From contig JAKVBQ010000025.1 in NCBI GenBank assembly GCA_022447205.1, positions 13,965-46,027 on the forward strand: a DNA stretch of 32,063 nucleotides, in the 5' to 3' direction. A program made the position numbers and the translations under genes. Below, in pieces: positions 714 through 27,574 of this stretch. Under the pieces are notes generated by a model. The model did not search any database. It worked only from the letters and a program-made list of their open reading frames with translations, and was not told the DNA's origin. How positions within the stretch are numbered: the stretch's first letter is position 1; the number at the start of each line of letters is the position of its first letter. Origin of the DNA: Phycisphaerales bacterium (GTDB taxonomy: Bacteria > Planctomycetota > Phycisphaerae > Phycisphaerales > SM1A02).

Positions 714-918
714 GCCTCAGCACCCGAACAAAGCACGTTCTGGAACAGTCCACTTGTTCCAAATGCTCTCAATCCCTGACCAGTGGCACGAGAAGTTACA
801 CGGACCATTTCTGTGATTTACAGGACGCTGTGACTGCAAGAAAAGCCCGCTTTCAAAATCGGGCATCGTCCGCACAGTGATTTTTCAGGCATCGGACCAT
901 TGCCGGCATACTCTTCAT

Positions 919-2337
919 ATGGCGGTACAAATGACCTGGAAAGGGTGCACAGAGCGATTCTGCATGTTCACGATTTTCGTGAGTGCTGTCGCTTCATCTG
1001 CATGTTCCGACACCATCACCGTCGACGATGACGGGTTCGCCGACCACGAGGACATCCAATCAGCGATCTTCGCCTCTCAGGACGGAGACACCATCCTCAT
1101 ACTGCCTGGAAACTACTCGTCGATGTTCTCTCAGAACATCTTTGACACGAACGGGAAGAAGATCCACATACGTTCAAGTGATGGGCCGGGTGTGACCTTC
1201 ATCGATGGCCGCAACCAGTATCGATGCATTGAATGCAACTCCGGAGAGAATTCAGAGACGATCATCGAGGGCCTGACCATCATGAACGGACTTGCTCCGT
1301 TCGGGGCCGGAATCTACCTGAGCAACTCGAGTCCGACCATCAGGAACTGCGTCTTCAGGTCGAACGTTGCGGATTTCTATGGTGGCTCGATTCTCTGTCA
1401 GACAGCGCATCCAAGAATCGAAGATTGCACGTTCACAGAGAACAGTGCGGGTGCATGGGGCGCAGCTCTCTACTCCATGTACGACAGCATTCCGCAGATC
1501 CATGGCTGTGTCTTCACGAACAACGCATCGATCGAGAACGGCGGCGCGATAGCCGGCGGATCGGGCAGCCACACGATCATCGCCAACAGCTTGTTCTCAT
1601 CAAACGGATCCGGAACGGGCGGGGCGATCTACAACAACCAGAGCGACTGCACGATCCACGAATGTATCTTCATTGACAACACCTCGCTGGAACGTGGAGG
1701 CGCGGTATCCGCCAAAGATGGATGTTCGATGAAGATCACTTCATCGGCTTTCCAGGGAAACCTTTCAACGGAAGGCGGCACATTCAGCGTGAATTCGAGC
1801 GACATCGAGATCGTTCTGTGCGAGCTCACGAACAACATCGGAACAGCTCGAGGCGGATGCCTTGACGCCACGAACGACAGCACGGTCCTGGTAGAGGACA
1901 CCTCGATTCGCCTCCACAGCTCCACTATCGGAGGCGCGATATTCGGTGACAACAGCATGCTCCAAATCACCGGATGCACGGTCACCGAAAATTCAGCGAA
2001 TTCAGGTGGTGCGATCTACACCCTCATGGGACAGACCTACATCACGGAGAGCCTGATCTGCAACAACTCGCCCGACCAGATCGTCGGGAAATGGCAGGAA
2101 GATGTTCGGTCCTGCATCGCGAGGTGGTGCGAGACAGACGAGGATGGTGTGACCGGATGCCTCTGCCCTGCAGACATTGACCGGAACGGTTTCGTCGATG
2201 GAGCAGATCTCACCATACTTCTGAGCAGTTGGGGATGGTGTGGAGCAGGCTACTGTCCGGAAGATCTTTCCAATGATGGTCTGATTGACGGGCTTGACCT
2301 GGGAATCTTCCTTGGATTCTGGGGACCGTGCGAGTAA
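919..2337 (+). CDS. Secreted right-handed parallel beta-helix protein with C-terminal dockerin-like repeats
   Basis: About 472 residues. The first ~28 residues form a signal peptide (hydrophobic MFTIFVSAVASSA, then SDT). The opening IDxxFADHEDIQSAI-like segment followed by GDTILILPGNY is the usual cap of pectate-lyase-like or polymorphic-membrane-type beta helices. Residues ~80-400 are ~22-25-residue coils with recurring GGAI/GGS turns and NCVF, DCTF and GCVF strands. The C-terminus carries two calcium-loop repeats, DIDRNGFVDGADLTILLSSWG and DLSNDGLIDGLDLGIFLGFWG, dockerin type I in style. No catalytic site is recognisable, so it may be an adhesin or polysaccharide-binding protein. The start is uncertain: GTG 877, ATG 919, ATG 931 and ATG 964 are in frame and none has a good ribosome site. 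ATG 919 or 931 gives a sensible signal peptide. Confidence 0.85.
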   Translation: MAVQMTWKGCTERFCMFTIFVSAVASSACSDTITVDDDGFADHEDIQSAIFASQDGDTILILPGNYSSMFSQNIFDTNGKKIHIRSSDGPGVTFIDGRNQYRCIECNSGENSETIIEGLTIMNGLAPFGAGIYLSNSSPTIRNCVFRSNVADFYGGSILCQTAHPRIEDCTFTENSAGAWGAALYSMYDSIPQIHGCVFTNNASIENGGAIAGGSGSHTIIANSLFSSNGSGTGGAIYNNQSDCTIHECIFIDNTSLERGGAVSAKDGCSMKITSSAFQGNLSTEGGTFSVNSSDIEIVLCELTNNIGTARGGCLDATNDSTVLVEDTSIRLHSSTIGGAIFGDNSMLQITGCTVTENSANSGGAIYTLMGQTYITESLICNNSPDQIVGKWQEDVRSCIARWCETDEDGVTGCLCPADIDRNGFVDGADLTILLSSWGWCGAGYCPEDLSNDGLIDGLDLGIFLGFWGPCE

Positions 2338-11308: not shown

Positions 11309-12076
11309 ATGACCTCTTCTCAGGCCGAACACGGCACAAAGCATCGGGCACTCAAGGGCAAGTCGATCCTGCTCAGGATCGCCATCGCGATCCTGGTCAT
11401 CGGGATGCTCGCGATCGCCGGTCGATGGTTCGGCTCCGAGATCGGCCCGTTCGAGGACTGGATCAGGAGTCTGGGATTCTGGGGCCCGATCATCTTCTGC
11501 GTGATCTTCCTGGTGATCACCGGTCTCCAGCTCCCGGAATCGATCATGGCGATCGCTGCCGGAGTCGCCTTCGGACTGCCCGAAGGACTTGCGATCCTGG
11601 TGGCGGCGAACATCATCGGTGCCATCCTCTGGTTCTGGATCGCGCGCAGGTTCCTCACCGGCATGGTGCACCGCATCCTCTCCAGGCACCCGAAGATGGA
11701 AGCGATCGAGCAGGCCACGGCCATGGAGGGCTTCAAGCTCATCGTCCTCCTTCGCCTTGGTCCGTTCAGTTACGGTGCTCTCAATTTCATGCTTGGCGCG
11801 AGTGACGTTCGATTCTGGCCGTACTGCCTGGCCCTGATCGGTGTGATTCCCGGCAACTTCGCGACCGTCTACTTCGGCTCGATGGCCAAGCACGTCGCAA
11901 GCAAGGCTGCGAACGCCGACAATCTCTCAGACACTCATTTCGTGATCATGGCGATCGGTTTCGCCGTCACCCTGGCCGTGGTCGGCATCATCGCCAGAGT
12001 CGCCCATGATGCCCTGAAGAAGTACCAGCTCGAGGTGGTCGACGAACCCAAAGGTGCGCCGGATCCGACAAACTAG
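11309..12076 (+). CDS. TVP38/TMEM64 family membrane protein (DedA superfamily)
   Basis: 255 residues. One N-terminal span (residues ~20-40), then the conserved VTT domain: re-entrant helix region LQLPESIMAIAAGVAFGLPEG, a GAILWFWIARRF span, and the second re-entrant motif LLRLGPFSYGALNFMLGASDV carrying the family Arg, Pro-rich turn and Asn. A further span (VIMAIGFAVTLAVVGIIA) lies near the C-terminus. The family is related to eukaryotic TMEM41B/VMP1 scramblases and bacterial DedA lipid transporters; the role here is presumably lipid or undecaprenyl-phosphate movement in the inner membrane. The stop codon TAG at 12074-12076 lies within a CTAG palindrome that also supplies the stop of the convergent gene. 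Confidence 0.87.
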   Translation: MTSSQAEHGTKHRALKGKSILLRIAIAILVIGMLAIAGRWFGSEIGPFEDWIRSLGFWGPIIFCVIFLVITGLQLPESIMAIAAGVAFGLPEGLAILVAANIIGAILWFWIARRFLTGMVHRILSRHPKMEAIEQATAMEGFKLIVLLRLGPFSYGALNFMLGASDVRFWPYCLALIGVIPGNFATVYFGSMAKHVASKAANADNLSDTHFVIMAIGFAVTLAVVGIIARVAHDALKKYQLEVVDEPKGAPDPTN

Positions 12077-13101
12077 TCTTCGTCCGTTTCAGCCGCCTCG
12101 ACAGGCACGACATCCTGCACGCAGCGAAAACCGAGATGTGACATGCCGGAATCGACCGCCGTTCCGATCCGAGCGCTCGGGCGATAGCGAAGACAATAGG
12201 ACTCGTGACAGAGGAAGGAACCCCCGCGTGTCACGCGCTTGGGAACGCCCGGTTCGGCAGGATCCAGCGAGGCGCGTGGCCCGGTGGGATCGATCTGGAG
12301 CTCCATCTCGCGCCCGCAATAGGCATCGGGACGATACCAGTCGCTGCACCACTCCCAGACGTTGCCCGCCATGTCATGCAGGCCGTATCCATTGGGCGAA
12401 AAGCTCCCGACGGGAGCGGTTCGGAGGAATCCATCGTCGCCGGTGTTCTTGTTCGGGAACTCGCCCTGCCAGATGTTCGCTCTGGCCGGACCCTCGGTCG
12501 GATCCTCGGAACCCCAGCCATACACCGCTCCTTCCAGCCCACCTCGTGCCGCCCTTTCCCACTCGGTTTCGGTCGGCAGCCTCTTGCCAGCCCAGTCGGC
12601 GTATGCCCGGGCATCCTCCCAGGCGACCATGACCACCGGATGGTCATCACGACCCTCGAGCGTGCTCCCAGGGCCTTCTGGATGCCTCCAGGATGCCCCT
12701 GGACTCCAGATCCACCAACGGGTGTAGTCACCCAGCCCCACCTCTTCCCCCGGTGGCGTGAAGACCAGCCCTCCGGGCTGGAGCAGTTCCGGGGCGGGTT
12801 CCGGCGTCCCCGGGGGAAGCTGCTCAGCCAGCTCCGCCCAGTTGATCGACCGCTCAGCCACCGTCACGTAGTTGGTGTCCTCGACGAACTTGGCGAACTG
12901 GGCGTTGGTGACCTCGTGCCGATCCATGAAGAACCCGTGCACCCGGGCGCGATGAACCGGATTCTCCTCGGGTCGGGCATGTTCGGATTCACTGCCGACC
13001 TGGAAGGTGCCTCCCGGGACCCAGACCATCCCTTCGGGAACGGCACCCGGAGGATCGTTGCTCCCGTAGATGGCCATGATGATCAACAGGCAGGATGACA
13101 T
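12073..13101 (-). CDS. Formylglycine-generating enzyme (FGE/SUMF1 family sulfatase activator)
   Basis: 342 residues covering the whole FGE-sulfatase domain: MVWVPGGTFQVGSE at the start, DRHEVTNAQFAKFV, HPVVMVAWEDARAYADWAGKRLPTETEWERAARGG, then GYGLHDMAGNVWEWCSDWY and a C-terminal VTRGGSFLCHESYC with C298 and C303. That pair matches the copper-binding redox cysteines of true FGEs such as human SUMF1, so activity in oxidising the sulfatase Cys/Ser to formylglycine is likely. An in-frame TGA two codons upstream of ATG 13101 rules out a longer N-terminus; the short hydrophobic start (SSCLLIIMAIYG) is weak as a signal. It lies 65 bases after the large esterase/ThuA gene on the same strand and may be co-transcribed. 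No sulfatase is in the window. Confidence 0.93.
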   Translation of the reverse strand: MSSCLLIIMAIYGSNDPPGAVPEGMVWVPGGTFQVGSESEHARPEENPVHRARVHGFFMDRHEVTNAQFAKFVEDTNYVTVAERSINWAELAEQLPPGTPEPAPELLQPGGLVFTPPGEEVGLGDYTRWWIWSPGASWRHPEGPGSTLEGRDDHPVVMVAWEDARAYADWAGKRLPTETEWERAARGGLEGAVYGWGSEDPTEGPARANIWQGEFPNKNTGDDGFLRTAPVGSFSPNGYGLHDMAGNVWEWCSDWYRPDAYCGREMELQIDPTGPRASLDPAEPGVPKRVTRGGSFLCHESYCLRYRPSARIGTAVDSGMSHLGFRCVQDVVPVEAAETDED

Positions 13102-13166: not shown

Positions 13167-16100
13167 TCAGTCCGTGCCGTCGGAATCCTCCAGGCCCGCC
13201 GCCCAGACGATCGAACCCCGAAGGTGATCGACGAACAGCTCCTCCTCGAAGCTTTCGCTGGTGTGCCCGCCACCGGTATAGAGGGCTCGACCCTTGCCGA
13301 CATCATGACACCAGGCGATCGGATGATCTCCGTTCATGCCACCACCGGTGTAGGACATCTCATCAAGGCTGGCGAGCACCCGGACGTTGGGTCGGGGACT
13401 GAGTCGATAGACATACCATTCATCGGTCCTTCGCCACAGGCCAGGCAGCATCCTGGTCGACGGGTGATCCCGATCCTCGACGGTCACCACGGCCGGCTGG
13501 ATCCGTGGATGGGTCTTGAAGTACGCACCGACGAGGTGTCCGTAGAAGGGCCAGTCGTACTCGGTATCCGCCGCCGCGTGGACTCCGATCCACCCCCCGC
13601 CGCCGTTCACGTAGCGTTCCAGAGCCGCCTCCTGGGACAGGTCGAGCACGTCACCGGTTGTATTGAGGAAGACGACAACCGCACAACGAGCCAGGGTCTC
13701 GTCATTGAATGCGGATGAATCCTCCGTGGCCAGGACCTTGAGTCCGAGTTCCTCGCCAAGGTCACGGAAGCACCTGACGCCGTCGGGGATCGAACCATGC
13801 CTGAATCCAGCGGTCTTCGAGAAGACCAGCATGGTGTCCGGCTCTGGCTCATCGGCCTTCGGGCCCGGCAATGTGTTGAGGGTGTACCAGGCCTCGGTTG
13901 CATGGATCGGCTGCCCGGATTCGTCCTCGAGAGAAGCATGAAAACGGACCACGCGGTTTGGTTTGAGTCCGTTGATGACGAGCCGGACCGAACGGCCGTC
14001 GTCCATCACCGACGCGGATTCGACGTCGAGGTTCCGATTGTCGATCTTGCCACCACCGTAGTCCGGGGTCGGTCGATACCCCCACTGGTCGATGGTCCAG
14101 TTCCCCGGGTCTGAAGCGATCCCTTCATCGACGGGACGGGTGAAGTGCAGCATGAAACCATCCGGTTCAGCCGAGATGTGGTGGTACTCGAAGACATCAT
14201 CGCCGGTCGGGACGAGGCGCTGGAGTCCGGTGCGGGTGCCACGCCAGCTCCATGTCGCCTGTTCACCGATACAGCCGACGATGAGCGAGCCGTCCGGAGC
14301 CCACTCGAGCCGGTTCACACCGCCTTCGAGCCCCTGGGTGTGGCGGAACACCGCACCCTGCAGCTGTCCGTCGACCTCCTCAAGCGCGATGCGACGGAGT
14401 CCGCCCATCTTCAGTTCACCAAGGAACATCTGTCCCTCGAACGGGCCGTCCTCGATCATCACCATCGAGGTCGGTGAATTGGCAGCTTCGTTCTGGGGAA
14501 GCCAGACGGCGGGTGGGGTGAGCGGTCGGTCCGAGTTCAGAGCGGGCACTCCCCCTTCCGGATACATGGAGCTCCACGCTCGTGACTCGTTGTAGTGCCC
14601 GTAGAAGTGACCGGGTCGAGCATGGTTGACCTTGCTCGCGGGCATCCAGGCACCCTGATTGTCGCAGACGAATATGTTGCCGGAGGGATCGACCATGATG
14701 CCATTGGGCGTCCGGAAACCGCCGGCAAGATGCTCGATCGTCCCATCCTCGAGCGAAATGCGCATGAGGTTGCCACGGTGTTCCGGATTGGGACCATTGA
14801 TTCCGCGGATCGAACCACGCTCGAGTTCGACGGGCGAGCCGATCGAAGTCGAGAGCGACGCGTACAACGAGTCATCATGGTGCTTCAGGCCGAATGTGAA
14901 ATGATGGTAGTTGTCGCTGGTCCAACCGTCTGCGAACGTTTCGCGACCCTCGTAGACCCCGTCACCATCGGCATCGGTGAATCGAGTGATCTCGTCCCGC
15001 TGCGCCAGATAGACGTCCCCATCGACGACACAGAGACCCAGAGGATGGTAGACGTCGTCGGCGAAGACCTCGTATTCGATCTGCTCCGGATCACCACAGT
15101 CCCAGTTGCTGATCACGTGCAGCATGCCGTTGGGTTCCTCGAGCCAGACACCGTTGTTCTTCGGTTCGAACGTTCCGATGAGCAAACGGCCGTCCGGCAG
15201 GAACGTCATGCAACCGACCATCGGGTTGTTGTCGGGATCATGAAGGGTCTCGACAGCCCAGCCGGGATGGAGATCCTCGAGCGGCACGCCATCCCCGGGC
15301 CTGACCACCCCACGTCCGTCATCCATCGCCTTGAAACCGGGAGCAACCACCCGCGTGACCCCGGCTTCGGTCCTGAGTGCGGACTCCGGAACGATCTCGA
15401 AGACATCGGATCCTGGCTTCTTCCATTCGAGGGTCAGGTATGCACCACCCTGGTTCTCGAAGAACAGCAGACGAAGCGGGTGAAGACCGGCATCGAGATC
15501 CACCGTGGCGTTCTCGGTCACGACGGGATGGACACCTCGAATCCAGATGACCCGCTCGTCGTCGAGAAAGAGCATCGAACCGTCATCGCTCGCCAGGCGG
15601 AACTCATGTTCCCCAGCCTCCTCGACGAGCAGGTACCCGGTGACATCGACCACGAACTGATCCATCAGCCCTGCGAAGTCCGAATCCTTGCGCCAGTCGA
15701 TCGACGAACGCAGCTCATCGACGTTCGGCGTCGTACCGGGAATCGGCTCGACCATGCTCCTGAGCTCACGGCCGACGCTGTAGATTCGCATCGAGACACC
15801 GGGCTCGAGGTCTTCCTCCGAAGGAACATCGCCACGGACCGCGCCTGGTGACACCGAACCGACCACCAGCTCGAACGGCGAAGCAGGCATGCCTTCGGTG
15901 TTACCAAGGTGGCTCCAACCGAGGTCTGCGCCACGTGGTTCACCCTCCCATGCGTAGCGAACCAGACGGGGTTCTCCCGCGATCGAGTCAGGGGGCATCA
16001 CGAGAAGCTGATGCCCGTTCATGATCTCGGCCTCTGCCCATTCGAACCTGCCATCACGTCCCGCAACCATGAACCCGCCGAGCTGGGTGCCGTCAGACCA

Positions 16101-17756
16101 CGTACCGAGGTCGGAGCCGAAGGTCTCGAATTCGACGAGGATGCCCCGTTCGGAATCGATGGCGGTGACTGGAAGCGGCCCGCTCCTCACACCGGAATCT
16201 CGTCCATAGACTTCCGGAAGTGCGAGCAGGGCAAGTCGGCGACCGACATCATGCTTGTTGCCCGGATGAATGTCGTTCGCCTCCCCAAGGTCCATGGTGA
16301 CGGCGACTCCGGTGCGCGGATCCCCTTGTGCGACTCGTCTCTGGGCATCGCGGATGCGCGCATAGTCCCAGCTCGGTGCGTGCCGGAAGTTCGGCAGCTG
16401 AACGATGTAGAACGGAAGCTCGGGATCAGCCATGGCATCACGCCAGTCGGCGATCATGCCCTCGAGCAGCACCTGGTAGCACTGAGGATCACCCTGCTCG
16501 ATGGCGTTGTTCTCGCCCTGGTACCAGATGACCCCTGCGAATGGGACGTTCCGGACCGCATGCACCATGCCGTTGTACAGATGGCTCGGGCGGTGCTGGT
16601 GCGGCATGTCGCGGGCCTGGGAGGTGAGTTTCATGCGGGCAGGTCCGGCCAGTGAGATCCGTTGATCAGGCGAACCGATCGGATGGACGTTCAGGTCGGA
16701 TGCATCGCCATGAATACCACCGGGACCGGAACCGTCGATGCATCGGATGGCGATGACCGATCGTCCGGGCCGCACCAGTTCACCGGGCACCTCGTAGCGT
16801 CGATCCCGATTCCAACCGTCGGTCCTGCCGATCTCGACACCGTTGAAGTAGGTGATGTCGTGATCGTCGATCTTCCCGAGCGAGAGCGCGAGCCTTCGAC
16901 CCGACCAGTCTTCAGGCAGGTCGACGACGATTCGATGCCAGAAGATCCCATCCACCGAATCGTCGATGCCGAACGCGTTCACGTGACCGGGAACGGTACC
17001 CTCGAGCCACGCGGAATCATCGACATCGATACCGGTGAAAGGCGCTGGATCCGCATGGATCTCTTCCAGTGCAAGCGCCCACTTTCCCTGCCATGCCTGA
17101 CCACAGGGTCCGCTTGCCTGAAGGGCATCGGGACGCATCCATGCCTCGACACGACTTCCTCCCCAGCTGGCATTGACCAGTCCGATCGGGACATCGAGGA
17201 CCGAGTTCAATTCTCGACCGAAGTGATAGGCGACGGCGGAAAAGCGACCGACAGTCTCGGGAGAGCAGATCACCCAACGGCCGGGGAGCCGGTCTCGAGG
17301 TTCGTCGACGGACGTGTTCCCAACGGTGAACATCCTGATCCTGTCGTTCGTCGCAGCAGGCCGGAACTCATCCGCACGATCGGAACCATCGACGGTCCAG
17401 ACCATGTTCGACTGTCCTGAGCAGAACCAGACCTCACCCACCAGGATGTCCCCGAATTGAAGAACGTCCTGCCCCGAGGCGAGACGCAGGTCAAGTGTGC
17501 TGCCATCAGCCGAGCCAGGGTCGAATTCGACCTGCCAACGGCCTGACGCGTCGATGACCACCTTCTCGGCGATCCGGTCACCGAGGACGAAATCGACCGA
17601 ACTGCCGGGAACACCGGTCCCACCGACTGTGTTGATGGCGTTCTGCTGCAGCACCATGCCATCGCCCACGATGGAGTCGACCGTGAAGTCGAGCGCATGA
17701 CAGCATGAAGCGGCGAAGAGAACAGGCGCGCAGGCATTGACGAGGAACGGGGACAT
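13167..17756 (-). CDS. Secreted multi-domain protein: sialate O-acetylesterase - PA14 - beta-propeller - ThuA
   Basis: 1529 residues. Signal peptide ~1-21. Residues ~22-630 are a SIAE/SASA-type sialate O-acetylesterase with nucleophile S116 in CSGQSNM, NASWGGSRVEAWM, WYQGENN at 411-417, and the Asp/His pair D495-I-H497; an inserted jelly-roll module (~245-370) is usual for the family. Residues ~655-795 are a PA14 domain (LASDDGSMLFLDDERV). Residues ~820-1190 are a glucose/sorbosone-dehydrogenase-like beta-propeller (HPLGLCVVDGDVYLAQRDEI, GGFRTPNGIMVDPSGNIFV). An Ig-like stretch follows, then a ThuA-like flavodoxin-fold domain (~1308-1525; VFSKTAGFRHGSI, GGGGWIGVHAAADTEY). ATG 17756 has AAGGAG at 17764-17769, seven bases away. 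It probably deacetylates and binds polysaccharide outside the cytoplasm. The reading frame is continuous and no frameshift is seen. Confidence 0.92.
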   Translation of the reverse strand: MSPFLVNACAPVLFAASCCHALDFTVDSIVGDGMVLQQNAINTVGGTGVPGSSVDFVLGDRIAEKVVIDASGRWQVEFDPGSADGSTLDLRLASGQDVLQFGDILVGEVWFCSGQSNMVWTVDGSDRADEFRPAATNDRIRMFTVGNTSVDEPRDRLPGRWVICSPETVGRFSAVAYHFGRELNSVLDVPIGLVNASWGGSRVEAWMRPDALQASGPCGQAWQGKWALALEEIHADPAPFTGIDVDDSAWLEGTVPGHVNAFGIDDSVDGIFWHRIVVDLPEDWSGRRLALSLGKIDDHDITYFNGVEIGRTDGWNRDRRYEVPGELVRPGRSVIAIRCIDGSGPGGIHGDASDLNVHPIGSPDQRISLAGPARMKLTSQARDMPHQHRPSHLYNGMVHAVRNVPFAGVIWYQGENNAIEQGDPQCYQVLLEGMIADWRDAMADPELPFYIVQLPNFRHAPSWDYARIRDAQRRVAQGDPRTGVAVTMDLGEANDIHPGNKHDVGRRLALLALPEVYGRDSGVRSGPLPVTAIDSERGILVEFETFGSDLGTWSDGTQLGGFMVAGRDGRFEWAEAEIMNGHQLLVMPPDSIAGEPRLVRYAWEGEPRGADLGWSHLGNTEGMPASPFELVVGSVSPGAVRGDVPSEEDLEPGVSMRIYSVGRELRSMVEPIPGTTPNVDELRSSIDWRKDSDFAGLMDQFVVDVTGYLLVEEAGEHEFRLASDDGSMLFLDDERVIWIRGVHPVVTENATVDLDAGLHPLRLLFFENQGGAYLTLEWKKPGSDVFEIVPESALRTEAGVTRVVAPGFKAMDDGRGVVRPGDGVPLEDLHPGWAVETLHDPDNNPMVGCMTFLPDGRLLIGTFEPKNNGVWLEEPNGMLHVISNWDCGDPEQIEYEVFADDVYHPLGLCVVDGDVYLAQRDEITRFTDADGDGVYEGRETFADGWTSDNYHHFTFGLKHHDDSLYASLSTSIGSPVELERGSIRGINGPNPEHRGNLMRISLEDGTIEHLAGGFRTPNGIMVDPSGNIFVCDNQGAWMPASKVNHARPGHFYGHYNESRAWSSMYPEGGVPALNSDRPLTPPAVWLPQNEAANSPTSMVMIEDGPFEGQMFLGELKMGGLRRIALEEVDGQLQGAVFRHTQGLEGGVNRLEWAPDGSLIVGCIGEQATWSWRGTRTGLQRLVPTGDDVFEYHHISAEPDGFMLHFTRPVDEGIASDPGNWTIDQWGYRPTPDYGGGKIDNRNLDVESASVMDDGRSVRLVINGLKPNRVVRFHASLEDESGQPIHATEAWYTLNTLPGPKADEPEPDTMLVFSKTAGFRHGSIPDGVRCFRDLGEELGLKVLATEDSSAFNDETLARCAVVVFLNTTGDVLDLSQEAALERYVNGGGGWIGVHAAADTEYDWPFYGHLVGAYFKTHPRIQPAVVTVEDRDHPSTRMLPGLWRRTDEWYVYRLSPRPNVRVLASLDEMSYTGGGMNGDHPIAWCHDVGKGRALYTGGGHTSESFEEELFVDHLRGSIVWAAGLEDSDGTD

Positions 17757-18117
17757 CGACAGGCTCCTTGAATGTGATTCGTTCCGGCCATGATATGAAA
17801 TGAAGTGGACACTGAGCGCTCACGGCACCGAGGCATCATCAGAGGAATCGCACGAACAGCGCTTCGGCGATCCACAATGCCATGAATTCCACCTCGGAAG
17901 TCCGCCTTGCAGGCGTCTGGGAGGAATCAACGGGAAATCGCGGACTCGAGATCCCCATCCCGACGGGATTCCCCAATCATGTCGGGAGGGAGCTCCCAGA
18001 CGACGAAAGACGGACACCCGATGATCAGACGTGCTGATGGTTCAGTCCGGAAGCCCGCTCAGTCGAGTGATTCCGACACTCGGGTGAAGACCTGCACGAT
18101 TCATCGACGAACACGCT
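17757..18117. other. 361-base divergent intergenic region between the SIAE fusion gene and the esterase gene
   Basis: No convincing gene is seen. At the left it holds the ribosome site of the fusion gene (AAGGAG on the minus strand, 17764-17769) and a possible minus-strand -10 (TATCAT, 17790-17795). A GAGCGCTC palindrome lies at 17815-17822. The centre is dominated by inverted repeats listed separately (17914-18002). The short open frame at 17800-18024 has no family features and an Arg/Pro-rich composition typical of chance frames. Confidence 0.6.
17914..18002. repeat. Long-range 10-bp perfect inverted repeat with inner hairpins; possible structured RNA
   Basis: CGTCTGGGAG at 17914-17923 is exactly complementary to CTCCCAGACG at 17993-18002, enclosing 69 bases. 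Inside, TCCCGAC (17958-17964) pairs with GTCGGGA (17981-17987), and GGGAGCTCCC (17988-17997) is a perfect palindrome overlapping the right arm. CGCC (17903-17906) could instead pair with GGCG (17912-17915), competing with the outer stem. No T-run follows on either strand, so it is not an ordinary terminator. It sits in the gap between divergent genes and could be an RNA leader element of the gene at 18118 (116 bases downstream) or a DNA-binding site. No known riboswitch class was recognised. Confidence 0.35.
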
Positions 18118-19371
18118 ATGGTCGACGCCATGAAGGCCATGTCATGCTCGATCCTCATCGCCCTCCTCTCCGCCCAGGTATCCGGGGCGGACGACACGGA
18201 GCGTTGGCCACCCTCACATGAGATCCCAGTCGAGGATGGACGACGCGCCCTCGATGAGATGAGAACAGCGTGGCAGGAACGTGACGGGTGGCAGCTTCGC
18301 GCTGCGAACATTCGCGCTCACGTGCGCCAGACACTCGACCTTGACGAGCTCCCCCCACCCTGCCCACTGGATCCCGTCATGCATGACAGACACCTGCATG
18401 ACGGATATTCGGTGGAATCCGTCCACTTCGAGAGCTTCCCGGGCTTCTTCATCTCCGGGAACCTGTACCGCCCTGCGGACATCGAAGGTCCACATCCGAT
18501 CGTCCTGTGCCCGCACGGCCACGCAAGAGCCGACGGCACAAGACCCGAAGGGAGGTTCAGGGCCGACTACCAGAGGCTCTGTGCGACTCTTGCCCGCATG
18601 GGTGCACTGGTGCTCACCTGGGACATGGTGGGATGGGGCGAGAATGAACAGGTCCCCCATCGAAGACCCGAATCAACGGTACTGCAGACCTACAACACGA
18701 TGCGTGCAATCGATTTCATGCAGTCGTTGGAAGATGCGGACGGAGACAGGATCGGCATCACCGGCTCCTCCGGTGGCGGAACCCAGACATTCCTGGCGAC
18801 GATGCTGGATGAACGCATCGACGTCTCGGTGCCGGTGGTCATGGTGTCAGCACACTTCTTCGGTGGTTGTTCCTGTGAATCCGGCCTGCCCATCCACGAC
18901 GGACCGGGATTCAGGACGAACAACGTGGAGTTCGCGGCCTGTGCGGCACCACGACCGACCCTGTTGCTTTCGGTTGGCGGGGACTGGACGACGAACACCC
19001 CTGAAATCGAGTTCCCCTACCTGCAGGAGGTGTATCGAACGATGGGCGTTCCGGATGCCTGCGCGAACGTCCATCTTCCAGAAGAGGAACACGACTACGG
19101 ATCTGGCAAGCGATTCCCCGCATATCGATTCCTGGCACGGCATCTCGGACTGGATCTCGCCAGTGTGACGAACCCGGACGGGTCGATCGACGAGGCACCG
19201 GTGCATCTCCACCCGAGACACGAACTGCTGGCGTTCACTGACGGACACCCGAGACCACCACGTGCCCAGATGGGCGCCGAGGCCGTCGACAGTGCATGGG
19301 CCCGACACAAGCGAAGGCGCTCAACCCAGGGCAACGACACCCGAGACGAGGTTCGGCCCGAGGACAGTTGA
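18118..19371 (+). CDS. Secreted alpha/beta hydrolase, acetyl-xylan-esterase-like
   Basis: 417 residues. A signal peptide is visible (MKAMSCSILIALLSAQVSGA), beginning four codons after the first ATG; ATG 18130 is therefore an alternative start. The alpha/beta hydrolase core shows the oxyanion region IVLCPHGHARADG, then LVLTWDMVGWGENEQVPHR, nucleophile S218 in GITGSSGGGTQTFLATMLDERI, VVMVSAHFFGGCSCESGLPIH, and catalytic H325 in EEEHDYGSGKR. The layout matches the acetyl xylan esterase/Abhydrolase_7 group frequent in Planctomycetes, which removes acetyl or other acyl groups from plant or algal polysaccharides in the periplasm. It is divergent from the SIAE fusion gene, which suggests a shared de-O-acetylation theme. 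The tail from ~residue 375 is charged and probably disordered. The substrate is not determined. Confidence 0.85.
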   Translation: MVDAMKAMSCSILIALLSAQVSGADDTERWPPSHEIPVEDGRRALDEMRTAWQERDGWQLRAANIRAHVRQTLDLDELPPPCPLDPVMHDRHLHDGYSVESVHFESFPGFFISGNLYRPADIEGPHPIVLCPHGHARADGTRPEGRFRADYQRLCATLARMGALVLTWDMVGWGENEQVPHRRPESTVLQTYNTMRAIDFMQSLEDADGDRIGITGSSGGGTQTFLATMLDERIDVSVPVVMVSAHFFGGCSCESGLPIHDGPGFRTNNVEFAACAAPRPTLLLSVGGDWTTNTPEIEFPYLQEVYRTMGVPDACANVHLPEEEHDYGSGKRFPAYRFLARHLGLDLASVTNPDGSIDEAPVHLHPRHELLAFTDGHPRPPRAQMGAEAVDSAWARHKRRRSTQGNDTRDEVRPEDS

Positions 19372-19388: not shown

Positions 19389-20297
19389 TCAGTCCTTCGG
19401 GGCAGGATCGTGTACAGGCAGTGCCCGATCCCCGATCAGCGCGAAGCGCCCATTGACCTTCCGGATCGCTTCGTCCATCGGAATTTCCTGACCAGGCAGG
19501 AAACCAGGAATCGCGAGCACCTGAATGACGGCGCCACCCAGCCCGCGATGGGTCACACCACGAGGGATCAGGATCAGTTGCCCGGCTTCGAGTGGAATGG
19601 ACCGGATGAGTTCGTCCACGTCACCTGCTTCGACCGCGCCGGCCAGGAGTTCACTCGTCCGGCGAGAAACGATCAGTCTCGCACCCGCAGGCGCTTCCTG
19701 CACGAGATAGAACTCGTCGAAACCACCTTCAACGGGATGGTAGTGGGAGAATGAATCATCGATCCTGACGCGGTGGCAGTTGAAACCATGCAGGACATAC
19801 GGTCCCCGCTCTGGATTCCACGTCAGCAGCAGTCGTCGATAGGCACCCGGGTCGGTCGCACAACCGCCGGGCCGGTCAGTGAGACGGGGATCGAAGTCCG
19901 GCCGGATGAGCGTCGGGATGTCGGGATCGATCATCACGTCGGTGGGAAGCACGAAGCTCACGAGTTCGTCGCCCGTACGAATCGACGAAGGGCCATCGGA
20001 TCGATGGATGACCATGTCTCCGATGCGCAGGCTGAGAGGCTGGGAACCCTCCCCGACGAACTCGCCCTCACCCTGCAGGAAGGTGACTCCCTGTGCGCCC
20101 GGAGGAAGCGGGCTCGAGGCATCATGCACCACGACGCTGTAACCGGGAGCGACCTGCCCCAGCCGTTCATTGAGCTCGGCGACACCTTCGCCTCGTTTCG
20201 AACCCGAGACATGAGCCACGACGACATCGGGAGGCAGTGCAGCATCCTGAAGCAACGGGCAGTTCGCGCTCAGCAGCACCGTAGCGAACAGGATCAT
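19389..20297 (-). CDS. Exported bicupin-like protein of unknown function, coupled to sodN
   Basis: 302 residues, starting with a short hydrophobic leader (MILFATVLLSANCPLL) that looks like a weak signal peptide. The N-terminal half (~40-125) has cupin-like strands but no metal motif. The C-terminal half holds a metal-type cupin: H185-Y-H187 in SHYHPVEGGFDEFYLV with E195, and H250 in PRGVTHRGLGG after EAGQLILIP. The central segment resembles sugar- or homogentisate-dioxygenase-style cupins only loosely, so no reaction is assigned. Its ATG overlaps the sodN stop (ATGA, 20294-20297 on the minus strand), so it should be translated with the superoxide dismutase. A role in metal delivery or in the oxidative-stress response is a guess from context. 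It ends 18 bases from the convergent esterase gene. Confidence 0.72.
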   Translation of the reverse strand: MILFATVLLSANCPLLQDAALPPDVVVAHVSGSKRGEGVAELNERLGQVAPGYSVVVHDASSPLPPGAQGVTFLQGEGEFVGEGSQPLSLRIGDMVIHRSDGPSSIRTGDELVSFVLPTDVMIDPDIPTLIRPDFDPRLTDRPGGCATDPGAYRRLLLTWNPERGPYVLHGFNCHRVRIDDSFSHYHPVEGGFDEFYLVQEAPAGARLIVSRRTSELLAGAVEAGDVDELIRSIPLEAGQLILIPRGVTHRGLGGAVIQVLAIPGFLPGQEIPMDEAIRKVNGRFALIGDRALPVHDPAPKD

Positions 20298-20902
20298 GAA
20301 CCAGCTCGATCCGCGATCCTCATCCAGTCGCCCTCACCTTCACCGGCATCAGCCCCGACGGCTGGCGGATACCAGGGAGCGACCGCCTTGATCGCATCGG
20401 AGAGTGCCTTCTGTACCGCCGGGTCAAGCGACTGGGCGGCCTTCATCGCCGCAACGCTGATGCGGTGATGCGCCGAGAGCCTCTCGAGGTACGCGTCATG
20501 GCCGGCTTCTCCAGCGGGCACGAACTTGACTCGCTGGGTCATGAAGTACCAGCTGTTGTCATGCTGCAGTTCACGGGAATGTTCCTCCTTGATCAGAACC
20601 CACCGTGAAATGGTGTTGAGGCTCGTGGCGTCGACCTTGCCCGAGAGCAGCGTGATCTGGGCCGATGCCTTGCTGATGGTCTCTCCCGCAAGCAGCATCT
20701 TCTTGATCATCATCGAGTCGTCGTAGATGCCGCAGGGAATCTCGCAATGCAGGGCCGTGGACGAGACCGGTGTCGCTGGCGCGTACGGAACCGTTCCAGA
20801 CAGGCCCTTGCTGCCTGCATCCGCGGAAGTGGCCAGGAGTGAACAGAAGAGTGCGGTCACGCCGAAGAGGACTGCCATCATGACGGGGGACTTGACTGAC
20901 AT
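20294..20902 (-). CDS. sodN: Nickel superoxide dismutase, exported precursor
   Basis: 202 residues. The nickel hook is HCEIPCGIYDD at residues 52-62; His52, Cys53 and Cys57 correspond to His1, Cys2 and Cys6 of mature NiSOD, which disproportionates superoxide. The rest is the four-helix bundle typical of the family (MMIKKMLLAGETISK, WVLIKEEHSRELQ, SLDPAVQKALSDAIKAVAPWYPP). It begins with a clear Sec signal (MAVLFGVTALFCSLLATSADA), then ~22 residues before the hook, so two processing steps are expected. No SodX-type maturation peptidase lies beside it. The frame is open 139 codons further upstream, but ATG 20902 directly precedes the signal peptide and has GAGG about nine bases ahead. The stop overlaps the start of the bicupin gene. 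Confidence 0.93.
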   Translation of the reverse strand: MSVKSPVMMAVLFGVTALFCSLLATSADAGSKGLSGTVPYAPATPVSSTALHCEIPCGIYDDSMMIKKMLLAGETISKASAQITLLSGKVDATSLNTISRWVLIKEEHSRELQHDNSWYFMTQRVKFVPAGEAGHDAYLERLSAHHRISVAAMKAAQSLDPAVQKALSDAIKAVAPWYPPAVGADAGEGEGDWMRIADRAGS

Positions 20903-20998
20903 GGATTCTGACCTCGAATGGGTTTGAGTGATTGCGAACACCGGCATGGTAGCCATGTAGGCAGTCGTCCCCTGAAACCGGAGGTCTTGAGGAAAATA

Positions 20999-21024
20999 CG
21001 GGGCCCGTCCTTGGACGGGCCCCG
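20999..21024 (-). terminator. Strong hairpin followed by a U-run on the minus strand
   Basis: A perfect 12-bp stem (CGGGGCCCGTCC with its complement) closes on two unpaired bases. Reading the minus strand, it is followed by TATTTTCC, the same kind of tail as the terminator at 26151-26180. No minus-strand protein gene ends before it: the next gene in that direction is sodN, about 97 bases further on. It could end a small RNA, act as an attenuator in the sodN leader, or block antisense transcription. Confidence 0.55.
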
Positions 21025-21033
21025 CGCTCCTCC

Positions 21034-21057
21034 GCAGCCGGTTCGAGAACCGGCTGC
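21034..21057 (+). terminator. Second strong hairpin, with a pyrimidine tail on the plus strand
   Basis: GCAGCCGGTTC at 21034-21044 pairs perfectly with GAACCGGCTGC at 21047-21057. On the plus strand it is followed by AATCTTCATCTTTCTCCCCC; the nine bases TCATCTTTC recur after the sthA terminator hairpin (29761-29769). It lies ten bases from the hairpin at 20999-21024, and each of the two has its tail on the outer side. Confidence 0.4.
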
Positions 21058-21211
21058 AATCTTCATCTTTCTCCCCCAATTCGGTTTCGGGGCGATCCGA
21101 AGCGGCCAGCAGGTCGAGAACGACCACTGACACTCGGATCCATGCCCCGTGTGCATCACCTGGATGCCAATCGGAGGGTTGGCGCGTGGAAGCGCCGATA
21201 CGGGGCCTGGA

Positions 21212-21229
21212 CAAGCGGATGACCGCTTG
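21212..21229. repeat. Small perfect hairpin in the sodN upstream region
   Basis: CAAGCGG at 21212-21218 pairs with CCGCTTG at 21223-21229 around a four-base loop. A second small stem, GGCGC (21181-21185) with GCGCC (21192-21196), follows on the minus strand. Together with the two large hairpins they would fold most of a minus-strand transcript starting near 21245. Confidence 0.35.
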
Positions 21230-21333
21230 AAGAGACCGGACCGTACGGGCCGATGTTAGCGCCAGGGCTTCCTGTTCAACGAGCACTGATTCCGGCAATC
21301 GGACAATCAAAGTTTCCATGTGAAAGACAAATC

Positions 21334-23391: not shown

Positions 23392-24552
23392 ATGCCCACC
23401 ACTCTCCAGCTCAAGCGGGTCGCCGTCCTGATGGACCGGGCTTTTGGTTCCAATCGCGAGATCCTGAGGGGCATCCAGAGCTGGAACGCCACCGAATCAG
23501 ATTGGACGATTCACCATGCGGTCTCCGCTCCGCATGTGCTGCCGGCACTGCGTGAGTGGCAACCGGATGGGGTCATCGCCCATGTCACCGATCCAGAACT
23601 CGCTGAAGGCCTCGAGGCCTGGGGCGGACCGGTGGTCAACACCACCAGCACCCTGAATGACGCTGGATTTCCTCTCGTCGAAGTGGACCACCAGGAGACC
23701 GGTCGCCTGGCCGCACACCACTTCATCGATCGCGGGCATCTCGATTTCGCGTTCTTCGGCAGCAGCATGACGGGATTCAGCCTCGAACGGGAGCAGGGGT
23801 TCCGCGAGGTGATCGAGGAGCATGGTGCAACCCTCCACGTATGCCATGCCGACCAGACGCTCACCCGGACGAGACAGGAGAGCTGGATCCGGAACGAGGA
23901 GGAGATCGAACGCTGGCTGCTTGATCTCCCTCGTCCCTGCGCCGTCTTCGTGTCGAACGATGTTCCCGCTCGAATCGTGACGACTGCCTGCGAACACCTC
24001 GGCCTCAAGGTCCCTGAGGAATTCTCGATCCTTTCCGTCGACAACGACGAGTTCGAGTGCCTCTTCGCCCACCCGACGCTCTCCAGCATAGAAATCCCAT
24101 CGGAGAGGATCGGACGAGAGGCGGCAAGAACACTGCGCGCCTTGATGAGAGGCGAGCAACCACTTCACGACCGCAACTACCTCCCACCCGTGCAGATCAT
24201 CGAACGTGAATCGACCGATCTCGTCGCGACACCGGATCAGGCGATTCAGGCAGCCGTCGCCTTCATCAGGGCCCGTCACCCGGATCCCATTTCAGTGGAG
24301 GATGTCGCGAAATCGGCCCACTGTTCCCGAAGGACCCTTGAACGCAAGTTCCGCCAGTCCCTCGACCGGACCATTCACGAGGAACTGGCACGACAGAGGC
24401 TCGCGCACGCACGCCGCCTGCTGGCGGAGACGGATGCCGACCTGGAGACGATCGCCCAACGTGCCGGCTTCACCGATGCCCGCAGGCTCGCAGTGGTCTT
24501 CCGACAGCACTTCGACAGCTCACCGTCCAGTTTTCGCAGGACCATCCGCTGA
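23392..24552 (+). CDS. XylR-like transcriptional regulator: LacI-type sensor plus AraC HTH domain
   Basis: 386 residues, close to E. coli XylR (392). Residues ~8-275 form a periplasmic-binding-protein-like sugar sensor (RVAVLMDRAFGSNREILRGI, VEVDHQETGRLAAHHFIDRGH, FVSNDVPARIVTTACEHLGLKVPEEFSILSVDNDE). Residues ~283-386 are an AraC/XylS DNA-binding domain with two helix-turn-helices (ISVEDVAKSAHCSRRTLERKFRQ; LETIAQRAGFTDARRLAVVFRQ). In this family sugar binding triggers activation of sugar-use genes. No obvious sugar operon is adjacent; the closest candidates are the esterase genes and the mutarotase elsewhere in the window. It follows the MBL gene by 50 bases. Its last 33 bases overlap the convergent glycosylase gene. 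Confidence 0.9.
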   Translation: MPTTLQLKRVAVLMDRAFGSNREILRGIQSWNATESDWTIHHAVSAPHVLPALREWQPDGVIAHVTDPELAEGLEAWGGPVVNTTSTLNDAGFPLVEVDHQETGRLAAHHFIDRGHLDFAFFGSSMTGFSLEREQGFREVIEEHGATLHVCHADQTLTRTRQESWIRNEEEIERWLLDLPRPCAVFVSNDVPARIVTTACEHLGLKVPEEFSILSVDNDEFECLFAHPTLSSIEIPSERIGREAARTLRALMRGEQPLHDRNYLPPVQIIERESTDLVATPDQAIQAAVAFIRARHPDPISVEDVAKSAHCSRRTLERKFRQSLDRTIHEELARQRLAHARRLLAETDADLETIAQRAGFTDARRLAVVFRQHFDSSPSSFRRTIR

Positions 24553-26204: not shown

Positions 26205-27446
26205 TCAGCTGCCGCAGGCACCCCAGGCCGCAAGCAGCGCGGAAAGATCCGCGCCATCGACGATCCCATTGCCGTCGAAGTCGGAGGCGGCATTGCTGCC
26301 CTGCCATTCCCCAAGGAGCTGGGCAAGGTCGCCGCCGTCGATCACGCCATTGCCGTCGAGATCCTCCGGGCATTCCGAGCCGGTCTCAGGCACGAATGCC
26401 ATGACACCGTTGGTGCCTGCCGTCGCCCAGACCATCTCCTGCACGGAGAAAGCGAAGTCATTGACCGCTTCGGTGTCACCATTGTCAAGGACGATCTGGA
26501 CCGGAGCAGTGGTCTCTTCGCGCCAGTCGATCGCCGTCACTGAAAGCGTCGAGTCCGTGCGGCCACTGACCAGGAGCTGTTCCTCACTGGCCGTGAAGTG
26601 GATCTTTTCCGCGATGTTCTGTTCGAGTTCGCCGTGGTAGACGCGCTGGCCAGTGACTTCGCCGCTGCCGGGAAGAGCGAACACGCTCAACGTGGCATTG
26701 TCTGCATCAAAGGCAGCTTCCTCGCCCTCGCCACCGCCGCCGACATAGGTGCAGCCGGGAGCGAATGCGATCGAGACCATGTCCCCATCACCAACGGTGA
26801 AGTGCGTGAAGAGCGTATCTCCCGTGGGGAGGTCCCAGACAGTCATCGAACCCATCTCACCGACTGCGCCGACAACACCCTCACTCCCATCGTTCTCGGT
26901 CGCGATCGCGATCGAGTTCGGAGTGGTCATCGGGAGCTCGCAGACGAAGACTCGGGTCGATTCACCTGTCGAGAGACTCGCGACCTCGACGTACGGGGAG
27001 CCCGCACCGGCCACGGCCATCGAGACGCCGGAGCTGTCGAAGGCAACCATGGAGGTACCGGAGAAGGTACGCATGGGAAGGCCATCGGTACCGAAGAGGA
27101 TCGTCTTGGGAACACCCTGGAGATCCAGGAAGCTGATCGCAAGTCGTTCAACGGAGGAGCTGTAGGCAAGTCCGTAGATCTCCATCGCCGAGAGCGCGGC
27201 CACATCCTCGAGCTCCCCGGTGACGGAATCATTGACGGCGAACACGTAGTTAGTGCCGGTCGTCTGCTGGTAGCAGACGATGAATGCGTCCCCCTCGATC
27301 GAGGTCTCGATCATCTGAGCGACACCGGACATGTTGTCATCGCTCCACTTGGGAACTGCTGACGAAAAGTCAATGATGTCATCCCCCATTGCCGAGACAG
27401 CAATGGTGAGCCCCGTGAGAACGACAAAGGTCTTCTGGAAGCGCAT
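26205..27446 (-). CDS. Secreted WD40-like beta-propeller protein with C-terminal dockerin-like repeats
   Basis: About 413 residues with a signal peptide (FQKTFVVLTGLTIAVSAMG, cut near residue 20). The body (~25-350) has repeated strand patterns such as SMTVWDLPTGDTLFTHFTVG, SIAFAPGCTYVGGG and VNDFAFSVQEMVWATAGTNG, read as degenerate WD40/YVTN-like blades; no catalytic residues are recognised. The C-terminus has CPEDLDGNGVIDGGDLAQLL and DFDGNGIVDGADLSALLAAWG, a pair of calcium-loop repeats like those at the end of the gene at 919. ATG 27446 is taken because it opens the signal peptide and has GAGGTG about eight bases ahead; the frame is open to 27500. A strong terminator follows. The function is unknown, likely extracellular binding or structure. 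Confidence 0.85.
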   Translation of the reverse strand: MRFQKTFVVLTGLTIAVSAMGDDIIDFSSAVPKWSDDNMSGVAQMIETSIEGDAFIVCYQQTTGTNYVFAVNDSVTGELEDVAALSAMEIYGLAYSSSVERLAISFLDLQGVPKTILFGTDGLPMRTFSGTSMVAFDSSGVSMAVAGAGSPYVEVASLSTGESTRVFVCELPMTTPNSIAIATENDGSEGVVGAVGEMGSMTVWDLPTGDTLFTHFTVGDGDMVSIAFAPGCTYVGGGGEGEEAAFDADNATLSVFALPGSGEVTGQRVYHGELEQNIAEKIHFTASEEQLLVSGRTDSTLSVTAIDWREETTAPVQIVLDNGDTEAVNDFAFSVQEMVWATAGTNGVMAFVPETGSECPEDLDGNGVIDGGDLAQLLGEWQGSNAASDFDGNGIVDGADLSALLAAWGACGS

Positions 27447-27465
27447 CGTACCGCACCTCATTTCT

Positions 27466-27479
27466 GGCATGCCATGGCA
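27466..27479. promoter_or_regulatory. Overlapping palindromes in the divergent gap; possible operator
   Basis: GGCATGCC (27466-27473) overlaps TGCCATGGCA (27470-27479); both are perfect palindromes. They lie in the 128-base gap between the propeller gene (-) and the TetR gene (+), where a TetR-type autoregulatory site would be expected. No second copy was found by eye. Confidence 0.25.
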
Positions 27480-27574
27480 CGCCTGGACTGACACAATCAC
27501 TCCTCCGGGTACCGACTCTGGTCGTTCGGCAGGATCGTGTGCCTCTTCTGGCCTACACTAGGGTATCCTCGGAA

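Follow-up and report, generated by a model that had tools for sequence, protein, structure and literature searches.

A CE20 acetylesterase joined to PA14, propeller and ThuA domains in one chain of a Phycisphaerales genus

A 32,063-nucleotide stretch of Phycisphaerales bacterium DNA (GenBank assembly GCA_022447205.1, contig JAKVBQ010000025.1, positions 13,965 to 46,027; here called the window) carries a single open reading frame (ORF) that encodes, in order, a CE20 acetylesterase, a PA14 domain, a six-bladed propeller and a ThuA domain. The parts are known already; the rare thing is their combination, which is limited to one genus within the genomes searched. We see an even chance that the product is a secreted glycan-processing enzyme, in which the esterase has been fused to a PA14-propeller-ThuA module belonging to the bacterial toolkit for 3-keto-glycosides. 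The esterase would strip O-acetyl groups through Ser116, His497 and, by way of a water, Asp495, under an ancillary lid; sequence and fold speak strongly for this site, and the activity is predicted from them. PA14 would probably hold the protein on carbohydrate, the propeller, as modelled, would probably bind or oxidise the exposed sugar, and ThuA would probably act on the resulting 3-keto-glycoside, alongside separately encoded 3-keto-disaccharide hydrolases (KDHs, PF06439) and Gfo/Idh oxidoreductases. Deacetylation is well supported by the residues and the predicted fold. The oxidation and keto-glycoside steps are proposed by analogy, from what the modules are fused to elsewhere and from what is known of ThuA and DUF1080 proteins, and we infer that the modules may act in sequence on one glycan.

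The window belongs to a genome of 3.25 Mb in 86 contigs (G000, 95% complete). An initial annotation of this DNA had described a continuous frame of 1529 codons with four modules, and the frame indeed contains no internal stop, with all four Pfam models above their cut-offs in the order SASA (69.9 bits, cut-off 24.8), PA14 (58.5, cut-off 24), DUF7133 (49.8, cut-off 27) and ThuA (239.8, cut-off 33.4). The landmark motifs that it listed are likewise in place: S116 in GQSNM, WYQGEN from residue 411 and FSKTAGFRHG from residue 1312. GC content by codon position is similar over the entire gene, a coding-type composition throughout. In G001, a second genome of the same genus, the four-module chain occupies one 1568-codon frame with no frameshift, identical letter for letter to JAQWMQ010000010.1 ('Phycisphaerales bacterium isolate cluster2_bin.156'). 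Because this second species keeps the same chain in one frame, an assembly frameshift, which the annotation had raised as a concern, or a chimera is unlikely, and an artefact of assembly was rejected.

The two proteins are about 75% identical over nearly their full length. Over residues 21-1525 they align at 76% identity with one gap column, with nonsynonymous and synonymous divergences (dN and dS) of 0.17 and 1.60; these figures show that the chain is real and that purifying selection acts on it, most strongly in the propeller. That module is the best kept between the species (89% over residues 845-1180, dN 0.06, dS 1.55), against 70% for CE20, 81% for PA14 and 79% for ThuA, while the post-propeller stretch is 57% identical over residues 1181-1300. 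The order of the genes downstream is identical in both genomes. As the annotation proposed, the product is probably a secreted, multi-module, glycan-active protein with a deacetylase, and this deacetylase retains a complete set of catalytic residues; secretion is read directly from the N-terminal residues rather than from a prediction tool, and the signal peptide of the G001 homologue is the more typical one (MKSIVLSLFLLGLMASGVQA).

Comparison of the esterase with enzymes of known structure gives its family. Over residues 25-629, phmmer matches Fl8CE20_II (9h4u, 9.6e-93), XacXaeA (7kmm, 2.9e-85) and PpCE20_II (9ega, 1.8e-83), as against 3.1e-33 for the animal sialate esterases, and a model of residues 20-800 (mean pLDDT 88) retrieves with Foldseek 9h4u (3.8e-61) and 9ega (1.7e-59), then 7kmm and then the animal enzymes. 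The three bacterial proteins align with the fusion over the whole module and share its ancillary insert, its GQSNM serine, its DxH motif and its oxyanion glycine (G199 here), but they end after CE20, where the fusion continues with PA14, propeller and ThuA. All 99 aligned CE20 rows have Ser at position 116 and His at position 497, while position 495 is Asp in 89 of them and Asn in six. According to the available text of PMC12313940, CE20 enzymes with an inserted ancillary beta-sandwich use a Ser-His-(water-Asp/Asn) arrangement, and the family takes in both these enzymes and animal SIAE. By residues and predicted fold, then, the module is a CE20 acetylesterase with a complete Ser116/His497/(water-)Asp495 site. 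The annotation's 'sialate' specificity finds no support accordingly, the closest matches being CE20 acetylesterases with an ancillary domain; an animal-type sialate esterase was rejected on the presence of that domain and the weaker match.

The ancillary loop of the fusion reads Gly-Trp-Asn. The same available text reports Trp329-Asn330 in this loop of XacXaeA, a member of xyloglucan cluster III, and Tyr in enzymes of the xylan cluster, so that in its Trp-Asn pair the fusion resembles the XacXaeA type. Among the 99 aligned rows, Trp stands at the site in 38 and Tyr in 43, and because both are found among relatives, the loop sequence gives a hint of the substrate and no more.

The PA14 domain has a predicted fold nearest to sugar-bound PA14 structures of Marinomonas primoryensis (6x8a, 2.3e-10 by Foldseek). 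For the propeller, a model of residues 636-1529 was used (mean pLDDT 78, pTM 0.63), the alignments behind the two structure models holding only 16 and 27 sequences. VIA-align gives it Z 27.4 to both 2ism and 3a9g (root-mean-square deviations of 2.9 over 278 residues and 3.1 over 291, respectively) and 26.2 to 1c9u. The 15 top rows are all pyrroloquinoline quinone (PQQ) sugar dehydrogenases or AA12 enzymes, at Z 25.2-27.4; the fold margin is moderate, because DFPase-derived and other propellers come next, from Z 24.6 down. Aligned by hhalign with four GSDH proteins, the propeller profile scores 96% (E 2.6e-9). A search of PDB sequences with that profile turns up chiefly designed Pizza propellers, matched by a single short NHL-like stretch, and 2ism comes no higher than E 0.47. 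PF07995 (GSDH) has no match in the fusion at E 0.1, nor at C18 in the search of its own genome at E 0.001. The GSDH label thus rests on the predicted fold and a profile-profile match, without Pfam support: the 'sorbosone-dehydrogenase-like' propeller of the annotation holds as a fold (Z 27.4), but not as membership of the GSDH family, with PF07995 missing and the PQQ residues partly lost.

Besides its fold, the propeller appears to share with the PQQ sugar dehydrogenases and the AA12 pyranose dehydrogenase (2ism, 3a9g, 3das, 1c9u and 6i1t) a conserved histidine and two arginines near equivalent places, the other residues of the site being changed. In the hhalign alignment, the HFGSR histidine falls on His951-His952, the PQQ-binding arginine on Arg1015, and the second arginine pair close to Arg1149. 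At the position of Lys1116, 17 of the 20 aligned rows have Thr; the lysine is found only in the fusion, L039 and L120. A heme-binding propeller of the Planctomycetes-Verrucomicrobia-Chlamydiae (PVC) type was also considered and rejected; the fusion has partial DUF7133 and TIGR02604 matches in common with such proteins, but it stays below the TIGR02604 cut-off (51.8 against 122.2 bits) and has no CxxCH.

The ThuA assignment is genuine as judged from the family model and the predicted fold: it matches 4jqs in the PDB (3.7e-21), and its fold matches include 4jqs, 4e5v and 1t0b. This domain is the only ThuA above cut-off in G000, and its counterpart the only one in G001. The title of Ampomah 2013, as cited in PMC6683767, ties the rhizobial thuEFGKAB operon to the assimilation of disaccharides via 3-keto derivatives.

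How rare the full chain is was gauged in four overlapping whole-protein surveys covering 61 relatives, 397 genomes of the class, 181 of the family and 392 of the phylum. Candidates were scored per genome (the best two for class and phylum, three for the family, up to nine for the relatives), so that more divergent full chains could escape. Among the matches listed, all four modules occur only in G000 and G001, as the annotation would have it for a rare architecture, and in a scan of genome contigs (best 80 of 591 loci) the full chain appears only in L038, which is G001. No second full chain was found in the long frames round other CE20, ThuA or propeller matches, and none of another eight long frames with ThuA or a propeller, taken from the survey lists (1154-1875 residues), contains CE20. 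ThuA-propeller fusions do exist elsewhere, as was claimed: 11 distinct proteins among the loci read have PA14-propeller-ThuA without CE20. One of these, from Planctomycetes bacterium Pla86 (L039, 913 residues), has the three modules in the same order at 53% identity over residues 624-1524, and its propeller falls in one clade with that of the fusion; it differs in having no CE20 in front, and in the tree other ThuAs lie nearer than its own to that of the fusion. Among the titles and abstract openings retrieved by literature searches on ThuA and 3-keto glycosides and on ThuA, DUF1080 and PA14 in Planctomycetes or PVC bacteria, with most subscription papers outside the search, none describes this architecture; nor does any title or abstract opening found for 3-keto-disaccharide hydrolase, sialate O-acetylesterase and sorbosone dehydrogenase in Planctomycetes. 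The available text of PMC12313940 contains none of the strings 'planctomyc', 'fusion', 'multidomain' or 'PA14'.

All parts of the fusion are tied to 3-keto-glycoside breakdown, because KDH domains are found fused to CE20, to PA14-propeller and to ThuA proteins. The frames of six relatives were scanned with Pfam: two CE20, two PA14-propeller, one Streptomyces ThuA and one PA14-propeller from that same Streptomyces locus. PF06439 domains end both CE20 proteins (L135 and L029) and the first two PA14-propeller proteins, and one is present in the Streptomyces ThuA protein, the PA14-propeller protein beside it having none. A KDH profile was then read over all loci fetched by that point except L002, L003, L009, L222 and L223. 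It gives PA14-propeller-KDH at 21 loci from 21 genomes (two checked with Pfam), ThuA-KDH and PA14-propeller genes together at four Streptomyces loci (L040-L043, one checked with Pfam) and, in G053 (L010, 1160-4741), PA14-propeller-KDH-ThuA in a single 1194-residue frame whose KDH part is weak, at 36 bits. The same reading contains 15 PA14-propeller-ThuA frames, some loci being counted twice, and 19 PA14-propeller frames with neither KDH nor ThuA in the stretch read. At L040, a ricin-B lectin domain is present on both the PA14-propeller and the ThuA-KDH protein.

CE20 enters the same company. Long CE20 frames were read in another 19 stretches, 17 of them chosen for this purpose and the other two being L157 and L163; nine encode CE20-KDH-KDH and ten do not, which brings the CE20-KDH frames to 11 (L135, L029, L225-L231, L235 and L241), of 1073-1188 residues and from several planctomycete genera. 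In these proteins, as in the fusion, the network supplies CE20 with a partner that processes carbohydrate, but the partner is PF06439 instead of PA14-propeller-ThuA. Neighbouring genes give related pictures: in G226 a PA14-propeller-ThuA gene adjoins a PF06439 gene, beside a DUF7133-cytochrome c gene; in G012 (L158) some 1.2 kb separate a single CE20 from a propeller frame on its own strand; and a single CE20 shares its stretch with a propeller frame in G848 and G723 (L233 and L234; partial frames). PF06439 has 11 matches in G000 and 10 in G001, one in each lying beside a Gfo/Idh gene (in G000, on C56), and PF13618 (Gluconate_2-dh3), which we take as a mark of LacABC-type enzymes, has no match in either genome. 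A second CE20 gene of G000 lies near GSDH and Gfo/Idh genes (G000:C39, 2081-8725), and the same three families are also close together on G001:C14.

DUF1080 (PF06439), according to the available text of PMC9007349, counts among its members a 3-ketotrehalose hydrolase that has been characterised and an enzyme put forward as a 3'-ketolactose hydrolase; that of PMC5673643 describes DUF1080 proteins as abundant in planctomycetes and ties them there to xanthan breakdown, a role other than the one considered here. The simplest reading of these sequence associations suggests that CE20, PA14-propeller, ThuA and PF06439 are parts of one 3-keto-glycoside system. The fusion is of value chiefly for having helped to bring into view this link of CE20 deacetylases with 3-keto-sugar processing. 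PA14-propeller, ThuA and secreted DUF1080 proteins, all poorly understood planctomycete families, appear to form that system, fed by CE20 deacetylases, and the network of fusions makes this a testable hint. If the propeller does oxidise sugars at C3, it would supply the pathway with an extracellular oxidase.

Several points weigh against a 3-keto-glycoside role for the fusion. No reaction of ThuA was found established in the literature searched. In the propeller, the position of Asn229 (sGDH numbering) is Thr1016 and the calcium aspartate is lost, as placed by a profile alignment; its PQQ and calcium residues are kept only in part, and it may serve in binding and not in catalysis. The KDH counts rest on a profile built for this work from six seeds, which are themselves among the frames counted. 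Of the 71 CE20 loci of the genome contigs scan, which are of various lengths, only 8 have a ThuA or KDH frame at another place and 63 have none, and the four nearest standalone CE20 loci (L150-L152 and L160) have no ThuA, propeller or KDH frame, nor any recurring partner. A Pfam scan of 20 window ORFs brings up no 3-keto-disaccharide hydrolase, sugar transporter or sugar dehydrogenase.

The likeliest of the alternatives sees in the chain a protein for breaking down polysaccharides that are both acetylated and sulfated, such as those of algae, co-expressed with a sulfatase-activating enzyme; we consider this possible, if on the unlikely side. A formylglycine-generating enzyme is encoded on the same strand 65 nt downstream of the fusion; it adjoins the fusion in G001 too and is the only close match in each genome (E 0.001). 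Between positions 12900 and 13300 there is no terminator- or promoter-like pattern, and the sequence would allow that the two genes are possibly co-transcribed. PF00884 has 11 matches in G000 and 15 in G001, but this model also matches enzymes other than sulfatases, and no sulfatase is present among the window ORFs scanned with Pfam. Such a role is compatible with the preferred explanation, a deacetylase joined to 3-keto-glycoside modules, and not opposed to it. The initial annotation had missed this downstream gene, as it had the CE20 ancillary domain and the link of all the parts to KDH.

It is doubtful, a little more so than a role in sulfated polysaccharide breakdown, that CE20 is the sole enzyme of the chain, with PA14, propeller and ThuA-like domain forming a scaffold for binding and spacing by which the esterase is fastened to a polysaccharide. 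The complete catalytic residues of CE20 and the partial loss of PQQ-site residues in the propeller would fit such an arrangement, and PA14 domains and propellers often serve in binding. Yet the supposed scaffold includes the most conserved part of the protein, the propeller, with many invariant polar residues over the 20 aligned rows; ThuA is well kept between the species and is encoded in a frame of its own in most of the listed relatives of the family; and both ThuA and the propeller turn up again and again in fusion with, or close to, members of a sugar hydrolase family.

Less likely again is an accidental fusion peculiar to the genus, in which three ordinary proteins share a chain and do separate jobs with no coupling. 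The nearest relatives do differ from module to module: CE20 falls with single CE20 proteins from the same family (SH-aLRT 99, in a quick tree of 44 rows chosen from 102), the propeller with that of Pla86 (99/97, 52 of 56 rows) and ThuA with single ThuA proteins of the same family (98/93, 37 of 40 rows), the last grouping losing its star after removal of outliers. The linker before PA14 is also short and poorly kept, at 47% identity between the species. Chance joining, however, would not lead one to expect the same partners to recur elsewhere, as they do in CE20-KDH, PA14-propeller-KDH, PA14-propeller-ThuA and ThuA-KDH, nor does it sit well with retention of the chain in both species at 75% identity. 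The trees suggest that the chain was assembled from pieces of different ancestry in the sense of these nearest relatives. A simple addition of CE20 to a Pla86-like PA14-propeller-ThuA protein was rejected: a tree that keeps every fused ThuA in one clade is disfavoured (p-AU 0.029, a post hoc value, the group having been picked after the tree was seen, with the outliers L053, L020 and L171 left out together with L166, which is identical to L039). For that reason replacement of ThuA, or separate assembly, seems more likely, with fission of a fused ThuA as a further candidate; support falls short of 80% on roughly half of the internal ThuA branches.

The boldest version of the 3-keto-glycoside explanation would have one secreted polypeptide couple deacetylation to an oxidative, hydrolase-independent cleavage of glycans: CE20 would free a hydroxyl, the divergent quinoprotein-like propeller would make a 3-keto sugar outside the cell, and ThuA would break or convert the 3-keto-glycoside. 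We regard this as improbable, and know of no description of the propeller as a family of sugar C3-oxidases; if true, it would give the Gfo/Idh and LacABC routes a counterpart outside the cell.

Table 1. Features of the fusion gene and its neighbours, in positions of the window
Feature	Position	Strand	Basis or remark
Whole ORF, CE20-PA14-propeller-ThuA, 1529 residues	13167..17756	-	ATG start, no internal stop; Pfam
Shine-Dalgarno-like AAGGAG, 7 nt before ATG	17764..17769	-	Read in sequence
Putative signal peptide, residues 1-21	17694..17756	-	Sequence only; hydrophobic, ends ...CHA|LD, n-region without basic residue
CE20 acetylesterase module, residues 22-632	15861..17693	-	phmmer and Foldseek
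Predicted catalytic Ser116 (GQSNM)	17409..17411	-	Aligned to Ser112 of Fl8CE20_II
Asp495-Ile-His497 (DxH, block V)	16266..16274	-	Aligned to Asp513/His515 of Fl8CE20_II
CE20 ancillary beta-sandwich inserted in SGNH domain, about residues 241-345, loop W315-N316	16722..17036	-	Alignment to 7kmm and 9h4u
PA14 domain, residues 651-795	15372..15806	-	PF07691, 8.8e-16
Six-bladed propeller, PQQ-sugar-dehydrogenase-like fold, residues 818-1189	14190..15305	-	VIA-align, hhalign, partial PF23500
Post-propeller beta region, residues 1190-1300	13857..14189	-	Model; also in PA14-propeller proteins of alignment A3
ThuA domain, residues 1309-1519	13200..13832	-	PF06283, 4.7e-71
Formylglycine-generating enzyme, motif CHESYC	12073..13101	-	PF03781, 1.3e-85; 6s07, 3.6e-87
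Divergent secreted-looking esterase, upstream of fusion	18118-19371	+	6goc, 1.1e-74
XylR-like regulator (periplasmic-binding and AraC-type domains)	23392-24552		Conserved in both species

Upstream of the fusion lies an esterase related to 6goc, itself a pectin methylesterase of the CE19 type; no counterpart of this gene turned up in L156 or L165, the G001 stretches read. The XylR-like regulator is about 5.6 kb from the fusion in the window and 14 kb from it in G001, where a Tad/Flp pilus cluster that the window lacks stands between the two (G001:C27; L156 15649-19892 and L165 120-5343).

Elsewhere in the window, the proteins encoded at 877-2337 (+) and 26205-27500 (-) have C-terminal stretches that match one and the same place in L155; the stretch of the second reaches 28 bits with a GC-type dockerin model whose cut-off is 29, and the first also has repeats of the Chlamydia-PMP type. 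The frame at 20294-21319 (-) encodes 341 residues, with a long N-terminal part and a nickel superoxide dismutase domain at its end.

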